Of a stretch of 30,821 nucleotides of DNA, positions 1,759 through 21,567 are shown one piece after another. How positions within the stretch are numbered: position 1 is the stretch's first letter; every line of letters starts with the position of its first letter. The stretch is taken from positions 1-30,821 of IMG/VR virus record IMGVR_UViG_3300030451_006693. One strand, given 5' to 3'. Position numbers and translations under genes: made by a program. The notes under the pieces were generated by a model, which saw only the letters and a list, made by a program, of their open reading frames with translations, was not told the DNA's origin and ran no database searches. This stretch comes from a virus.

Positions 1759-2039
1759 TGAAACAAAATATACCATTTGATGAGATGCAGGATATAGAGT
1801 TTAATAAATCTTTCTATTCATTTTGTACATATGTAACTTTGGTATATGATAAGAAAATGAATTTTGCTACAGTATTTTTAAAAATACTAGAAAACAAAAC
1901 TTTAAGAGATATGTTTGTTAGCATTATAGATGAAGATAATGAATTTGGAGCTATTCAAAAATTTATTCATACTGAACCTTCAATATGTAAAAGTAAGTAT
2001 GTTACAAAGTTTTTAAATAAATTCAAAGGATTAAAATGA
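1758..2039 (+). CDS. Hypothetical protein, 93 aa
   Basis: I do not recognise this small protein. It is mixed in charge with two aromatic stretches near the N-terminus (YSFCTYVTLVY) and a Lys-rich C-terminus, and has no signal peptide or clear motif. Its ATG overlaps the stop of the DHH gene by one base, and its end overlaps the start of the halogenase by four (ATGA). It is therefore translated as part of that operon and is probably a real gene. Tight coupling to the halogenase makes a partner role possible, but this is only a guess from position. Confidence 0.6.
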   Translation: MKQNIPFDEMQDIEFNKSFYSFCTYVTLVYDKKMNFATVFLKILENKTLRDMFVSIIDEDNEFGAIQKFIHTEPSICKSKYVTKFLNKFKGLK

Positions 2040-3442
2040 ACAAACCTAACAGCGTAACCATTGTAGGTGGTGGATCAAGCGCATGGTTAACCGCTGCATA
2101 TTTAAAACATAATACTAATTATAGTATAACTGTAATTGATAAAGAAGATGGTAAATCAATAGGAGTAGGGGAAGCTACTACTAGAGGGTTTATTGATTTT
2201 TTAAATGAATGCGGCTTTGAAAAATCGCAATGGTTTAAAGAAATAGAAGCTACATATAAATCTGGAATATATTTTCCAAACTTTGGTAAAAATAAAGATG
2301 TATGGCATCCTTTTCTTATATCTTTACCTAATGAAAATTACAGTTCAAATTTATATGAAGCTTTAACTTATAATAAAGATAGAATTTTTAAAGACTTACC
2401 ATTTCAAGATATTAGTTTAAGAAATGAAGTAAATTTTTCTAGTCTTGAACATTATGCATATCATATTGATTGTACTAAATTAGTTAATTTTATAAAAAAT
2501 AAAATAGATATTAACTTTATAAATTCAGAAGTTGTTAATATAGATTACAATGAATCAAAGATAGAAAAATTAAAATTAAAAAATGGTGAATATATTAAAA
2601 GTGATTTATTTATTGACTGTACAGGTTTCAAACAAATTTTAGGTAACAATGAAGGTAGGGTAAATACCACAAACAGATTATTTTGTGATACTGCAATTGC
2701 TGGTCATGTAGAATATAATGATAAAGAAAAAGAATTTAAACCATATGTTACCAGCAGTGCTGTTGATCACGGGTGGATATGGAATATACCTATACAAACA
2801 AGAATGGGTTCAGGGTTAGTTTTTAATAGAACTATAACTTCAATTGAAACAGCTAAAAAATACCTAATAGATTATTACCCTGATAATAAAGTTACAAATC
2901 TAAAAGTTATCGATTGGACCCCTTACTATTTAAAAAATCAATGGAAAGATAATATAGTAAATATTGGGTTAAGTTCCGGATTTGTTGAGCCGTTAGAAAG
3001 TACTGGATTAATGATTATAATGGAAAGTATAAAATTATTAGTTAAAAATTTAGAAAACGGTTCAGTTGAAAAATATAATAATCAAATGGTAGATAATTAT
3101 GAAGACGTCATAGATTTTATTAATATGCATTATCAATATTGTAATATAATTAGTGACTTTTGGAATTACGTTAGAGGTAATATAGTTAGTTCAAGTAAGT
3201 TAGAACATTATAAAAATATTTTAAAACATGGCATAAAAATTGACGACTCAATAGGTGATAACATATTTGATAATGGTAGTTGGATTTGCTGGATGTTGCA
3301 GTGTGAAGATATTATAATAGAAAATAAAAATATAGATAAAGATATATCTGTAAAAATATTAGATGAATATAATAAAACATATTGCAATAGAAAGACTATT
3401 TTAAAACATACAGATTACGTTTTAAAAACTAATTACTCATGA
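2036..3442 (+). CDS. Flavin-dependent halogenase (tryptophan halogenase family)
   Basis: A 468-residue FAD-dependent halogenase. The N-terminal dinucleotide fold has GGGSSAW (residues 11-17; family form GGGxxGW) followed by GVGEATTRGF (43-52). The hallmark WxWxIP is present as WIWNIP (247-252). By alignment from memory with PrnA/RebH, Lys75 (in TYKSGIYF) matches the catalytic lysine that guides hypohalous acid. The Glu-Ser pair in FVEPLESTG (Glu321, Ser322) matches the conserved active-site pair. All key residues look intact, so the enzyme is predicted to be active with reduced FAD and halide. The substrate is unknown and need not be tryptophan. A halogenase of this family from a marine cyanophage (VirX1) has been characterised, so viral members exist. 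It lies between small unknown genes within the replication region, overlapping both neighbours by 4 nt. No flavin reductase is visible; the host would have to supply reduced flavin. Confidence 0.88.
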   Translation: MNKPNSVTIVGGGSSAWLTAAYLKHNTNYSITVIDKEDGKSIGVGEATTRGFIDFLNECGFEKSQWFKEIEATYKSGIYFPNFGKNKDVWHPFLISLPNENYSSNLYEALTYNKDRIFKDLPFQDISLRNEVNFSSLEHYAYHIDCTKLVNFIKNKIDINFINSEVVNIDYNESKIEKLKLKNGEYIKSDLFIDCTGFKQILGNNEGRVNTTNRLFCDTAIAGHVEYNDKEKEFKPYVTSSAVDHGWIWNIPIQTRMGSGLVFNRTITSIETAKKYLIDYYPDNKVTNLKVIDWTPYYLKNQWKDNIVNIGLSSGFVEPLESTGLMIIMESIKLLVKNLENGSVEKYNNQMVDNYEDVIDFINMHYQYCNIISDFWNYVRGNIVSSSKLEHYKNILKHGIKIDDSIGDNIFDNGSWICWMLQCEDIIIENKNIDKDISVKILDEYNKTYCNRKTILKHTDYVLKTNYS

Positions 3443-10774: not shown

Positions 10775-11809
10775 ATGGTTGTAGTTCCTGAGCAATATAT
10801 TGTAAATGTGCTTTATGAAAATATTTACAAGATAAGTTATAATAAGTATAATCACACTTATAATGGATGCTGCCCTATATGTAAAGAAGGTGATTCATGG
10901 GGTAAGAAAAAACGTTTTTATTATATACCTAATAAAGAACTAGCTTATTGTCATAATTGTGGTTATAGTAAAAAACCTTTAACTTTTATATCAGATGTAA
11001 CTAATAAACCTTTACAAGATATTATTGGGGAGATAAAAAACTTTGAAATAGAAATAGATGATATTATAGAAGAAACTCCTCAAGTAAAAAAAACTATAGA
11101 CTTTTCATTACCTGAAGATTGTATAAATTTATTTGATACTAATCAGGTTAATTATTATAAAGATAATAAAATAGTTAAATTAGCATTAGATGTAATAAAA
11201 AGTAGAAGATTAGATAAAGGTATTAATAAACCTAATGCAATATATGTAACTCTTAAGGATAAAGTTCATAAGAATCGTTTAATATTGCCTTTTTATGATA
11301 AAGATCAAAAAATTATATTTTATCAATCAAGAGGATTAACTAAAAAAGATTTATATGAAAGACCAAAGTACTTATCTAAAGTAAATTCAGAAAGAAGTCT
11401 GTATGGTATACACAATTTAAATGTAAACTTAGACAACGTGTTTATATTTGAAGGACCTATAGATAGTTATTTTGTAGAGAATGGGTTAGCTACTTGCGGT
11501 ATAACTGAAAATACTGATAAAATGTTTACTGCATTACAAAAAGAACAAATTAATAAACTTAATTTATATGAAAAGATTTATGTATTAGATAATCAATATA
11601 TTGATAAAGCTGCTTTAAGTAAAAGTATTATATTGGTAGATAATGATGAAAAAGTTTTTATATGGCCTAAGGAGTTAAAAAAGTTTAAAGACTTTAATGA
11701 TATATGTGTTATCGGTAATAAAGACAAAATAAAACCTGAGTTTATTTTAAATAATACTTACTCAGGTCTTAAAGCTAAATTATTATTAACTGAAATTAAA
11801 AATAGTTAA
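10775..11809 (+). CDS. 61: DNA primase gp61 (zinc finger plus TOPRIM)
   Basis: A 344-residue primase that makes RNA primers with the gp41 helicase. The N-terminal zinc-binding domain has Cys33-x2-Cys36 (CPIC) and Cys59-x2-Cys62 (CHNC), with an aromatic basic strand KKRFYYIP between. A primase core follows, with NRLILPFYD and the QSRGL segment near 184-188, as in DnaG-type enzymes. The TOPRIM glutamate is in VFIFEGPIDSYF (Glu226), and the acidic IILVDND (around 285-292) supplies the metal-binding Asp residues. Length equals T4 gp61 (342). Expression is probably from its own promoter. Its stop shares a TTAA with the stop of the convergent gene at 11806. Confidence 0.85.
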   Translation: MVVVPEQYIVNVLYENIYKISYNKYNHTYNGCCPICKEGDSWGKKKRFYYIPNKELAYCHNCGYSKKPLTFISDVTNKPLQDIIGEIKNFEIEIDDIIEETPQVKKTIDFSLPEDCINLFDTNQVNYYKDNKIVKLALDVIKSRRLDKGINKPNAIYVTLKDKVHKNRLILPFYDKDQKIIFYQSRGLTKKDLYERPKYLSKVNSERSLYGIHNLNVNLDNVFIFEGPIDSYFVENGLATCGITENTDKMFTALQKEQINKLNLYEKIYVLDNQYIDKAALSKSIILVDNDEKVFIWPKELKKFKDFNDICVIGNKDKIKPEFILNNTYSGLKAKLLLTEIKNS

Positions 11810-12144
11810 TTAAAAAGACGAGGGTTAGGCATATTTAAAGCGTGACTAGAAAGTCTGTATAAAGCTTCATCCAAATCACTTTCATCTATTTTACCATTTA
11901 CTGAATCAAATTTAATAATACTTTTAATAATATCTTCAAATTCATCTAATATAGGCTTTAAATCATTTTTTAATTCTGGCTTTTTACGCATAAGTTCTTC
12001 AAGTCTTTCGAAAACAGGAGGTTCATCAGGTGGGCCAAAGTCGTCGCGCTCAGGTGAATCTGGATCAATACCTTCATCATCAAAATCTTCCTTAATAAGA
12101 CTTTTAGTATATGCTTCGAAAATTAAATCTTTATCAGTTTTCAT
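11806..12144 (-). CDS. Small acidic protein with capsid-targeting-like N-terminus (candidate internal head protein)
   Basis: A 112-residue acidic protein of unknown fold. Its first residues, MKTDKDLIFEAYTK, closely resemble the T4 internal-protein capsid-targeting peptide MKTYQEFIAEA. They contain a site that fits the gp21 prohead protease rule (Ile/Leu-x-Glu, cut before Ala): LIFE|A. The middle is Asp/Pro-rich (DSPERDDFGPPDEPPVF) and probably disordered, followed by a helical EELMRKKPELKNDLKPILDEF. A late promoter core lies upstream, at 12157-12150. It is the last gene of a three-gene - strand group whose other members also have candidate processing sites. Packaging into the head and injection with the DNA is the inference; the function of the mature part is unknown. 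Confidence 0.6.
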   Translation of the reverse strand: MKTDKDLIFEAYTKSLIKEDFDDEGIDPDSPERDDFGPPDEPPVFERLEELMRKKPELKNDLKPILDEFEDIIKSIIKFDSVNGKIDESDLDEALYRLSSHALNMPNPRLFN

Positions 12145-12149
12145 ATTAT

Positions 12150-12157
12150 TATTTAAT
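12150..12157 (-). promoter_or_regulatory. Late promoter core (ATTAAATA), 5 nt before ATG
   Basis: Read on the - strand from 12157 to 12150: ATTAAATA, then ATAAT, then the ATG at 12144. It has 6 of 8 matches to the T4 late promoter TATAAATA with an intact TAAATA core. It lies in the 27 nt gap between the two - strand genes. Confidence 0.5.
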
Positions 12158-12171
12158 TAAATTAAAAATAG

Positions 12172-13308
12172 TTAGTCGTTAGGTACACCAGCAATATGGC
12201 CTTTTTCAATATCTTTAAGATACGTTTTTAAATAACTAAAAGCTTCTACTTCACTCTGTACTATATCTTGATCATATAGACCAACTATTAAATTTTCAAT
12301 AGCTTCATGAGTTTTTCCTTCTGCTTCTCTATTGTATCTTACTTGAACTGAAGGATCGAATCTTGTTTTTGGTTCAGCTCTTACATGTGAAAATCCTGCT
12401 TTAGCCAATGCATCAGCTGATTCTTGTTCTTCGTCTTTATCTTTTTTACTTAATTGATGTGCAACTAAAGGCCCAACTGCTCCTAGCGTTGCTGCGCTAG
12501 CTATTGTCTGACCTAAAGGTGAAGATGCTGCTTTTGCAACTTTACCTGCAGCAGTTTTTAAACCGCTTCCTATATTTTTAGCTGTATCACTTGCTAATGC
12601 ATCTGTTGCAGTTTTCTTTACCATAGAACCTGCTGTATTAAGCTTATTCATTAAACCTTCTTGATCTTCTGAATAACCTATAACGTGAATTTGTTTTACT
12701 TCTTGTTCTTCTTCGTTATCACCGAAAATTTGATCTTGAGCTTCTTGACCCATTCCAGAAATCATATACTCTCTTTTTGAAAGCTCATCTCTAAAAGGTC
12801 CTGCATCTTCCCCAGTAATAATACATTTACCAGCAGCTATATAAGATCTTCTGTTTTTACCACCTAACAATTGAGTTAACATTGCTTCAATTTCAGCACT
12901 CTTCTCAGTAAATTCTTCATCACTCATAGGGCACTCACCGTCTTCACCCCCTGTAAGTTTCTTTCCTATATTAGCAGCAGCTCCTCCAATTAATCCAGCT
13001 GCTCCTAATGCACCAGCTGCTACACCAGGTGTCATGCCTGTCATGCTCTTTATTCCTTTTCCAACTTTACCTGCAAATTTACTTATATCAGCACCTATAT
13101 TATCTTCTGCTTCAGCTTTTTCTCCCTTTTCATAATATCTATCATGCATTGATTGAATAGCTGATCTAGCAGAATCTGGTAAGTTAAGATCTTTAATAAT
13201 TTCATCTACTGTATCACCAGCATCTAAAGCCATAATAACTTGCTTCATTTTACCTTCGTTTAAAGGTCTATAAGCTTCGTAAATTAATGTTGCATCTTTA
13301 TCTCTCAT
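12172..13308 (-). CDS. Gly/Ala-rich protein with capsid-targeting-like N-terminus (candidate internal head protein)
   Basis: A 378-residue protein of unknown family. The N-terminus MRDKDATLIYEAYRP has the pattern x-Leu-Ile-x-Glu-Ala-Tyr shared with the small gene downstream and fits a gp21-type cut (LIYE|A). Two Gly/Ala-rich hydrophobic stretches, about residues 92-113 and 262-284, could enter or fuse with membranes. Between them is a segment with two Cys (126 and 162) and an acidic run (DNEEEQEVK). The C-terminal 60 residues look like a helical bundle. It starts 3 nt after the stop of the gene upstream on the - strand and is probably translated from the same message. Candidate roles are an injected protein that helps DNA cross the inner membrane, or a core protein; both are inferences. 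Confidence 0.6.
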   Translation of the reverse strand: MRDKDATLIYEAYRPLNEGKMKQVIMALDAGDTVDEIIKDLNLPDSARSAIQSMHDRYYEKGEKAEAEDNIGADISKFAGKVGKGIKSMTGMTPGVAAGALGAAGLIGGAAANIGKKLTGGEDGECPMSDEEFTEKSAEIEAMLTQLLGGKNRRSYIAAGKCIITGEDAGPFRDELSKREYMISGMGQEAQDQIFGDNEEEQEVKQIHVIGYSEDQEGLMNKLNTAGSMVKKTATDALASDTAKNIGSGLKTAAGKVAKAASSPLGQTIASAATLGAVGPLVAHQLSKKDKDEEQESADALAKAGFSHVRAEPKTRFDPSVQVRYNREAEGKTHEAIENLIVGLYDQDIVQSEVEAFSYLKTYLKDIEKGHIAGVPND

Positions 13309-13311
13309 AAA

Positions 13312-13728
13312 TTATACGTACCTGTATTTAGGATCATTTGCCCCAGCTAAGTAACCTTTAAGTATTTCACTTAATGAACTAATTTCCATTGCTACTCTTG
13401 CTATTTTCTTCGTTTCAGCATTACTAATACTATCGAATAAAGTATCTTCTTCTGCTTGGTTTAATTTAGTTTGTACGCTATCAGTTGTACCATTTAAATA
13501 ATCTGAAAATCTATCCATTTCTGAAATCCATGAATTTAATTCATCAAACATTTCTTTCTGACCATTAGCAACTGGAGTGTCTGGAGTTTCGACATCAAAA
13601 TCAGTTGGATCGGTTTCTGGCTCTAATTCTGCTGCCAATGCGTCTTGATCTGTAAGTTGATCATCGATGTTTTCTGCTTCATCTTGCTCTTTTATAGCAC
13701 GATTAAATTTTTTACTGTATAAACTCAT
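13312..13728 (-). CDS. Acidic protein, candidate internal head or core protein, 138 aa
   Basis: Not recognised. The N-terminus MSLYSKKFNRAIKEQDEAEN is basic and helical and ends in a possible Ile-x-Glu protease site (AIKE|Q), a weaker match than the two genes downstream. Residues 17-55 are strongly acidic and Thr/Pro-rich, hence likely disordered. Residues 60-130 are helical (MFDELNSWISEMDRFSDYL, ARVAMEISSLSEILKGYLAG). It has a perfect late promoter 5 nt upstream, overlapping head to head with the promoter of the + strand gene at 13751. A late, head-associated role fits the promoter and neighbours. Confidence 0.6.
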   Translation of the reverse strand: MSLYSKKFNRAIKEQDEAENIDDQLTDQDALAAELEPETDPTDFDVETPDTPVANGQKEMFDELNSWISEMDRFSDYLNGTTDSVQTKLNQAEEDTLFDSISNAETKKIARVAMEISSLSEILKGYLAGANDPKYRYV

Positions 13729-13733
13729 AATAA

Positions 13734-13741
13734 TATTTATA
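13734..13741 (-). promoter_or_regulatory. Perfect late promoter TATAAATA, minus strand
   Basis: TATAAATA read from 13741 to 13734 on the - strand, then 5 nt to the ATG at 13728. It overlaps the + strand copy at 13738-13745 by four bases (TATA), so the two are mutually nested. Confidence 0.75.
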
Positions 13742-13745
13742 AATA
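13738..13745 (+). promoter_or_regulatory. Perfect late promoter TATAAATA, plus strand
   Basis: TATAAATA at 13738-13745, then TTTAT and the ATG at 13751. It overlaps the divergent - strand promoter. Its position also shows that the + gene starts at 13751 and not at the ATG at 13667 inside the opposite gene. Confidence 0.75.
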
Positions 13746-13750
13746 TTTAT

Positions 13751-14119
13751 ATGCTAAATACAAAATTTATAGACTTTGTTCAACAAATAAATGAAGATGC
13801 TATAGAACCTACCACAAAAAGAGATATGTTAGGTTTAAAAGATGAATCTTTACCACAGGCTTCTAATGTAAATGATTACTTTAGATCTAAAGAAAGATCA
13901 GATATAGCTCCAGAAAATATACCATATCCTTTAGAGCAAATCAATAATATGGCAAGTAATGCTTTTATATCTTTACAAAATATGGAAGAGATACTTAATA
14001 TTGCTAAAACAAATGCAGTTATCAAAGATAAATCTCTTATAGAGGTTTTACAGAAAAAAATCAGAAGAGTAAAAAAAGAAATAGTTGAAATTGATGTAAT
14101 ATCTAATAAAATAAAATAA
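13751..14119 (+). CDS. Hypothetical late protein, 122 aa, candidate internal head protein
   Basis: An unrecognised protein. The open frame extends back to an ATG at 13667, but that start lies inside the divergent gene and upstream of the late promoter. The start at 13751 is exactly 5 nt after TATAAATA and gives the N-terminus MLNTKFIDFVQQINEDAI. This could be another capsid-targeting-like helix with an Ile-x-Glu site (INE|D), a weaker case than at 11806 and 12172. The rest is polar, with a long C-terminal helix ending in a basic KKIRRVKKE segment. The stop overlaps the next ATG (TAATG), heading a four-gene late operon. Confidence 0.6.
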   Translation: MLNTKFIDFVQQINEDAIEPTTKRDMLGLKDESLPQASNVNDYFRSKERSDIAPENIPYPLEQINNMASNAFISLQNMEEILNIAKTNAVIKDKSLIEVLQKKIRRVKKEIVEIDVISNKIK

Positions 14120-15156: not shown

Positions 15157-15346
15157 TAATACGAGAAAAAATACACGTCATTTTCAAAGAGGTGTATTAC
15201 ATGTATTAAACAACGTATCTTTTAATAAAGAAGATAATACTTTTACATATTCATTTAAATTACCTCAAAAAAATGAATTTAAAGAAGTTAAATTTGAAAG
15301 TATTGAACAAGCAGATAATTATTTGCAAACAATAATTTTTAATTAA
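15125..15346 (+). CDS. Hypothetical protein, 73 aa
   Basis: Not recognised. A small basic protein whose N-terminus (KFINNTRKNTRHFQRGVLHVL) is Arg/Lys-rich and whose second half reads as beta strands (NTFTYSFKLP, KEVKFESIEQAD). The only ATG, at 15125, makes a 32 nt overlap with the gene before; no other in-frame ATG, GTG or TTG lies closer to that gene's end. The stop shares TTAA with the convergent EF-hand gene. Confidence 0.45.
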   Translation: MKFIPGTKFINNTRKNTRHFQRGVLHVLNNVSFNKEDNTFTYSFKLPQKNEFKEVKFESIEQADNYLQTIIFN

Positions 15347-15729
15347 GGTCGAATATCATCCATAACTATATCATGAGCTACTGATTCTTTAATTACATTA
15401 ATATATTCATTATACTCTAAAACTGAGTTCTTAGGTTTTAAATTTTTTCTACAAATTTGTGCATGTAAATTTTCCCCTATTTCTGATGTATTATCAGAAC
15501 TGAATATAAATTCATCATTTGTATCTTTAATAGTTTTTAAAAAATTTAGTAATTCGGTATACGTAATATTTCCGTTACTATCCGTATCAATTAATTCAAA
15601 TAATTGAAGGTCAGTTAAATTATTATTTTGAGCGTATACTTTTAAAACTTCTGCTAGATATCTACCTTTATCTGACATTTGCAATAATGTAGTAACATCA
15701 ATTTTATTTCCTGGTAGTGGCGTTATCAT
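15343..15729 (-). CDS. EF-hand calcium-binding protein, 128 aa
   Basis: Residues 48-59 form a textbook EF-hand loop: DTDSNGNITYTE, with Asp at 1 and 3, Asn at 5, Gly at 6, Ile at 8 and Glu at 12. Helices flank it (LTDLQLFELI before, LLNFLKTI after). A second, degenerate hand is likely near the C-terminus, ending in VLEYNEYINVI with a Glu at position 12 but without the early Asp ligands. This paired arrangement is typical of EF-hand domains. The protein is the last cistron of the tail/fibre operon, starting immediately after the stop of the upstream gene (TAA then ATG). It may be a Ca-responsive tail or baseplate part, or a chaperone for the large proteins upstream. EF-hands are uncommon in phages. 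Confidence 0.72.
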   Translation of the reverse strand: MITPLPGNKIDVTTLLQMSDKGRYLAEVLKVYAQNNNLTDLQLFELIDTDSNGNITYTELLNFLKTIKDTNDEFIFSSDNTSEIGENLHAQICRKNLKPKNSVLEYNEYINVIKESVAHDIVMDDIRP

Positions 15730-20976: not shown

Positions 20977-21567
20977 ATGGCACGTAAATTTTTAAAAATT
21001 ATAGAAAATACAATAGCTAGATATAGTAATGGTGGGTTCTTTACTGGCGATTATGTTAAATTAGCTAATAACTACAAGAGTAAAGATAGCTACAAACAAT
21101 TACCTGACGATGTAAAAGAATATGTTGATAGTTATTTTGATACCGACGGTAACTATAGAGTAGTTAATATTAAGACATCTCAAGCAACCCCTGCTCCAGG
21201 TAATAGTGCTAATAGAGGAGATTCATTTACAGTTGAAGTTGCTTTAGATACCGGTGGTGGTAGATATGATATGCAAGGAAAAGTTGCATTAAGTGCTGAT
21301 TTATTAGTCAAAGTTGATTCAAGTAATGGTATGGTAGATTCTGGTAATATTCCAGATAGTACGAGATATAAAAATAAAGTAAATATTAAACCTAGAGAGA
21401 CTAACGAAGAAGATGAAGTAGAAATTACAAGAGTCACTTCAAAAGGAAATTTAGGTGATAAAGCTACACCGACTGAATTAAGTTTACCTACAAGTAATAC
21501 TAAAATACCTTCATCACCTGCAACAAGCTCTCCTGCTGTTGGGGATACTGGTAATTACATGAGTTAA
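20977..21567 (+). CDS. Hypothetical late protein, 196 aa
   Basis: Not recognised. A basic N-terminus (MARKFLKIIENTIARYSNGG) is followed by GDYVKLANNYKSKDSYKQL and a beta region (YRVVNIKTSQ, DSFTVEVALDTGGGRYDMQG). The last 50 residues are Ser/Thr/Pro-rich and probably disordered. It is a single-gene late unit on the + strand between - strand genes, with a perfect late promoter. Its stop shares TTAA with the gp44 stop. A virion or head-assembly role is suggested by the promoter only. Confidence 0.55.
   Translation: MARKFLKIIENTIARYSNGGFFTGDYVKLANNYKSKDSYKQLPDDVKEYVDSYFDTDGNYRVVNIKTSQATPAPGNSANRGDSFTVEVALDTGGGRYDMQGKVALSADLLVKVDSSNGMVDSGNIPDSTRYKNKVNIKPRETNEEDEVEITRVTSKGNLGDKATPTELSLPTSNTKIPSSPATSSPAVGDTGNYMS

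Follow-up and report, generated by a model that had tools for sequence, protein, structure and literature searches.

A probable T4-like capsid-targeting tag with its own consensus on predicted head cargo of mostly uncultured phages

Two adjacent phage genes with unrelated bodies, encoding proteins of 112 and 378 residues on the minus strand, carry a common N-terminal tag (MKTDKDLIFEAY and MRDKDATLIYEAY; Table 1). Comparison with related sequences strongly supports a role for the tagged N-termini in capsid targeting, followed by removal by the prohead protease. The tag is in all probability a T4-like capsid-targeting sequence (CTS) with a consensus of its own, borne by head cargo of diverse, mostly uncultured T4-like phages. 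Cargo of this kind evolves too rapidly to be traced by homology, so that little is known of what environmental T4-like phages inject; the tag provides a simple way to find proteins that these viruses may inject into their hosts.

The window, i.e. the whole stretch of DNA analysed, is a 30.8 kb IMG/VR fragment (30,821 nucleotides) of a T4-like phage, an uncultured virus of bacteria. It encodes a DnaB/gp41-type helicase, a gp44-type clamp loader and a gp61-type primase, and gp21, gp22 and gp23 are not present within this fragment. In large tagged relatives gp23 is only ~31-35% identical to the gp23 of cultured phages, indicating that the lineage has no close cultured member within the searched collection.

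Table 1. Features of the tagged block and its borders in the window (arrows mark predicted cuts)
Feature	Position	Strand	Remarks
gp61-like DNA primase, one border of the cargo slot	10775..11809	+	
Tagged gene 1	11806..12144	-	112 aa, acidic, pI 4.35
Second predicted cut site, 112-aa protein	12088..12096	-	I17-K-E19↓D20
Tag MKTDKDLIFEAY	12109..12144	-	predicted cut I-F-E10↓A11
Tagged gene 2	12172..13308	-	378 aa, pI 4.96
Second predicted cut site, 378-aa protein	13255..13263	-	L16-N-E18↓G19
Tag MRDKDATLIYEAY	13270..13308	-	predicted cut I-Y-E11↓A12
Conserved flanking gene	13312..13728	-	138 aa; site I12-K-E14↓Q15
Predicted prohead-protease site, 138-aa protein	13687..13695	-	conservation in family
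Three overlapping T4-type late promoter motifs TATAAATA	13734..13751	two -, one +	serve both directions
Conserved divergent gene	13751..14119	+	122 aa; site I13-N-E15↓D16
Predicted prohead-protease site, 122-aa protein	13787..13795	+	

The tag and its T4 register

The T4 prohead protease gp21 cleaves after L/I-x-E, and in the T4 internal protein (IP) IPIII residues 4 and 7 govern targeting and residues 8 and 10 processing (PMC9026906). The tag of the 112-aa protein, MKTDKDLIFE↓A, aligns without a gap with IPII and IPIII (MKTYQEFIAE↓A; sequences taken from the T4 record), sharing M1, K2, T3, I8, E10 and A11 and the same E10↓A11 spacing. The resemblance to the T4 peptide that had been proposed in the original prediction is upheld, as are the reading frames and N-termini of the four genes and the (Leu/Ile)-x-Glu↓Ala sites of the two tagged genes; start codons are inferred. 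The tag of the 378-aa protein is one residue longer. The register is that of IPII/IPIII: positions 4 and 7 correspond to those for targeting, positions 8 and 10 to those for processing, and the predicted cut follows E10. The tag departs from the T4 sequence at residues 4, 7 and 12; the literal targeting residues Tyr4 and Phe7 are absent and Asp/Glu4 and Leu7 are found in their place, making it a variant and not the T4 sequence itself.

The consensus in IMG/VR relatives is M-x-x-(D/E)-x-x-L-I-x-E-A-Y, a pattern that occurs twice in the window (none expected from shuffles). The LI-x-E-x-Y part of the tag was imposed by the search pattern, and residue 4 of the T4 register, three positions ahead of the Leu, is D or E in 72/73 listed non-redundant tags. 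R, N or Q sometimes follows the first predicted cut. In the two tagged proteins of the window the predicted propeptide comprises ~10-19 residues, ending either at E10/E11 or at the second site E18/E19.

Two known systems invite comparison. Like the CTS of T4 IPI, IPII and IPIII (PMC9026906), the tag is a short N-terminal peptide with an L/I-x-E cut that is common to unrelated bodies; the cut after residue 10 in IPII/IPIII and IP bodies free of L/I-x-E are further likenesses. Unlike the T4 CTS, it has an acidic residue 4, Leu at residue 7 and an added Tyr 12, is usually followed by a second site and is joined to acidic cargo of many more families. Propeptides of the SPN3US/phiKZ type (PMC5694885) similarly consist of identical N-termini on diverged ejection proteins, with extra cuts within the propeptides, but they use an A-x-E or S-x-E motif and are often >100 residues long.

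Spread of the tag among relatives

An IMG/VR pattern scan, together with other loci, yielded at least 112 tagged N-termini, at least 73 of them non-redundant. Single-linkage clustering divides the tagged bodies into at least 25 clusters, including a few chance matches (e.g. L014, L021 and L074), and the tag recurs on at least about 20 unrelated body families in these relatives. Since a pattern scan selects the motif, gene sets not selected for the tag were examined. In 271,441 residues from loci fetched solely via the neighbouring 138-aa gene, the motif, with any middle residue, was N-terminal in 38/38 cases and internal in none. Middle-residue variants include LIGEAY, LIAEAY, LLSEAY, LITEAY and LIMEAY, and LIAEAY, LITEAY and LIMEAY are found elsewhere in large contigs too, outside the cargo slot described below. 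Such variation favours a protease site at which P2 is unconstrained. In some large contigs tagged genes, up to four per contig, lie at unlinked positions.

Exact LI-x-EAY was present as an N-terminal tag in 0/11 cultured T4-like genomes, the sole exact match among them lying in T4, antisense to gene 2. In the literature searched, no phage-related mention of LIFEAY or LIYEAY was found. One further gene (L002 5046-5912, plus strand), whose product starts with MRTFQEFHNDRLLNELAPLALPAAG, adjoins three tagged genes and resembles the T4 label MKTYQEF at its start instead.

Second cut sites and depletion of sites in the bodies

When the 18 residues after the tag were scanned, a second (L/I/V)-x-E was found 2-9 residues past it in 60/73 listed tags, as against 20% of control windows. 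The second sites of the window read LIKE↓D in the 112-aa protein and PLNE↓G in the 378-aa protein. Beyond the N-terminus, L/I-x-E occurs in tagged bodies at 0.75 of the expected frequency and at 1.21 in controls (other proteins encoded in the window and in three relatives), and 0/20,000 bootstraps reached the tagged value; this depletion implies selection. Neither the second sites nor the depletion had been noticed in the original prediction. T4 served as positive control: L/I-x-E is absent outside the N-terminus in IPI, IPII and IPIII, and gp22, a degraded scaffold, has 13 sites versus 4.8 expected. The body of the 378-aa protein follows the T4 IP pattern, with none after residue 18 versus 4.3 expected (P 0.007), whereas the 112-aa body, with four sites versus 2.0 expected, is unlike T4 IPs.

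A generic L/I-x-E[AGSQN] near the N-terminus arises by chance in ~5-7% of 17-residue stretches here, and a generic count of N-terminal L/I-x-E across genomes gave merely a ~two-fold excess, insufficient alone for the claim.

The cargo slot, its neighbours and promoters

The region between gp61 and the 138-aa gene is a variable slot. One or more tagged or near-tagged genes lie in 29/29 occupied distinct slots, with F, Y, A, G or S as the middle residue of the tag, and one slot is empty. The slot is probably the place where cargo genes are exchanged.

Neither the 138-aa nor the 122-aa neighbour carries the tag. The weaker Ile-x-Glu sites attributed to them earlier (A-I-K-E↓Q and Q-I-N-E↓D) are real and family-conserved; as a generic site near the N-terminus is not rare by chance, they count only through that conservation. 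The site of the 138-aa family is (L/I)-x-E↓(Q/A/K) with a variable middle residue: among 21 distinct N-termini matched by extraction, P3 is L/I in 21/21 and P1 is E in 21/21, with eight different P2 residues, and another subgroup reads K-I-L-E↓Q. In the 122-aa family the site is mostly (L/I)-x-E↓(D/Q) and has been lost in one divergent clade. Both neighbours retain L/I-x-E sites in their bodies (two versus 1.6 expected in the 138-aa protein). These proteins may be cut up during maturation as core proteins, and we infer that they belong to the constitutive proteins of the head or core and are not cargo. A structural model of the 138-aa protein predicts an N-terminal helix, an acidic linker and a helical hairpin (pLDDT 70.8), and comparison of this model with BFVD returned one uncharacterised phage protein and no other match.

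Expression from late promoters, also part of the original prediction, is supported by sequence motifs. The window holds six TATAAATA motifs versus 17 expected, three of them overlapping within one 18-base intergenic stretch, and an exact motif is kept between the divergent genes in 55/70 relatives (general density 0.42 per kb). Behind these motifs the three minus-strand genes follow one another like an operon, although the very short spacing between motif and start codon makes exact transcription starts uncertain. Elsewhere in the window, a small protein with an EF-hand pair (15343-15729, minus strand; Pfam 5e-8) is encoded directly behind a TATAAATA motif. Such a motif also precedes the gene at 20977-21567 (plus strand), whose product starts with MARKFLKIIENTIARYSNGG, an N-terminus kept in G001 and G005, and may be a further head or structural protein that undergoes processing.

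Protease and major head proteins in tagged relatives

A gp21 homologue, sought as a check on the original prediction, was found in the relatives: both the gp21 protease (S77, PF03420) and gp23 (PF07068) are present in 8/8 tagged contigs of at least 118 kb. Two large contigs have chance tag matches only, and the S77 protease and gp23 are found in one and not in the other. The gp23 of tagged contigs has W-C-F-E↓A-S, C-L-N-E↓A or a similar site before its mature part, near the T4 gp23 cut position (LTE65↓A). In two relatives gp22 starts MDIKQILSE↓A.

Cargo families

Most tagged bodies are without a known family. They are acidic, with a median pI of 4.7 (4.35 and 4.96 in the window), whereas T4 IPs are basic (8.9-9.5), and no Pfam or PHROG match relates them to IPI, IPII or IPIII. 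Megablast and tblastn searches of the window or of relatives' proteins against cultured phages gave no relatives of the window's tagged bodies. PHROG, Pfam, PADLOC and PDB sequence searches assigned them no functional family, the only match being phrog_19722 on the 378-aa protein; no body matched a family suggesting an anti-defence role or target, and PADLOC matches were weak.

At locus L108 the tag is joined to a phrog_2319 body, with which homologues of other phages align only from ~residue 58, and the Aeh1 homologue begins without a tag. At L109 (2996-4312, minus strand) the tag is fused to a ligase-like body with a KxDG motif (KLDG), a candidate injected nucleotidyltransferase; an untagged relative (L032:8302-9375) has L-K-E↓A at the corresponding place. 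T4 Alt, an injected ADP-ribosyltransferase with an N-terminal propeptide (PMC9026906), is a precedent for such enzyme cargo, and no sequence relation of tagged cargo to Alt was found.

In the 112-aa body, a domain of the form FERLEELM..KPEL..LKPIL is common to relatives, in which it occurs in shuffled combinations. Around residues 94-115 the 378-aa protein is hydrophobic and rich in Gly and Ala, which could, speculatively, suit membrane contact. Its residues 172-202, reading ISGMGQEAQDQIFG, resemble phrog_19722 (unknown function; E 1e-5). In many phage versions of this stretch the G and A positions are occupied by Cys, and this copy may thus have lost metal binding. A search for related loci with the 378-aa protein confirmed none, and its AlphaFold model was discarded (pLDDT 42.6, 4 sequences).

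Proposed mechanism and alternative explanations

By extension from the T4 mapping, residues 4 and 7 of the tag would bind the growing prohead core, and the bound tag would carry its protein into the prohead. A gp21-type protease is predicted to remove the tag at L-I-x-E↓A and/or the second (L/I/V)-x-E. Late transcription would co-produce the cargo and the small conserved protein of head or core type encoded at 13312-13728. With its site-free body, the 378-aa protein probably stays in the mature head and is ejected with the DNA, and by analogy with T4 its injection is likely; the 112-aa protein may be broken up during maturation as core material. The block had been predicted to be, as a whole, a set of internal injected effectors. 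Capsid-targeted, protease-removed N-termini of the two tagged genes are strongly supported by the T4 register, the many bodies, the slot, the presence of gp21 and gp23 and the depletion of sites; effector status of the entire block is more doubtful, the 112-aa protein and the neighbours keeping sites in their bodies.

It is unlikely, though worth weighing, that the tagged proteins are instead accessories of the prohead core or scaffold similar to T4 gp67 and gp68, which would be cut by gp21, mostly leave the head and not be injected. The tagged proteins are acidic and helical and some are small, T4 gp67, gp68 and gp22 keep several L/I-x-E sites, and the 112-aa and 138-aa bodies have more sites than expected. 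However, tagged bodies are depleted as a group, the 378-aa body has no site, and the cargo, unlike a core scaffold, varies greatly and includes one enzyme-like case. For the 112-aa, 138-aa and 122-aa proteins gp67, gp68 and gp22 are a possible model, in that these T4 proteins have N-terminal L/I-x-E sites and gp67 and gp22 are acidic, but homology was not detected and the block here lies beside gp61, not beside gp20-gp23.

The conservation of Tyr12 exceeds what the protease alone explains, and together with the acidic residue 4, likewise kept beyond the needs of L/I-x-E cleavage, it could suggest that L-I-x-E-A-Y is a binding helix with no protease site, docking onto another phage assembly or replication complex. 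This is very improbable, as P3 and P1 are fixed while the middle residue varies, most listed tags are followed by a second protease-type site, bodies avoid L/I-x-E and the register is that of the T4 CTS. Scarcely credible is a functionless leftover of a recent local duplication with fast-diverging bodies. The tagged genes do adjoin and some bodies share domains in shuffled order; against this, the tag has been kept on unrelated bodies in distant contigs and, within one contig, at positions that are not linked, and the depletion of cut sites points to selection.

Taking the tag as a capsid-targeting sequence, it is reasonable to suggest, with rather less assurance, that LI-x-EAY serves a large uncultured T4-like group as its general head address label, distinct from that of T4, and that an N-terminal scan reads out the packaged and injected set, including the ligase-like enzyme. 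Tag, fixed cargo slot and site-free bodies together form a sequence test for such cargo, one that yields candidate families for host-takeover or counter-defence functions.

Other observations in the window

A tryptophan halogenase (2036-3442, plus strand; PF04820, 1e-76) is encoded within the phage replication region, and a tryptophan halogenase is also annotated in HTVC008M.
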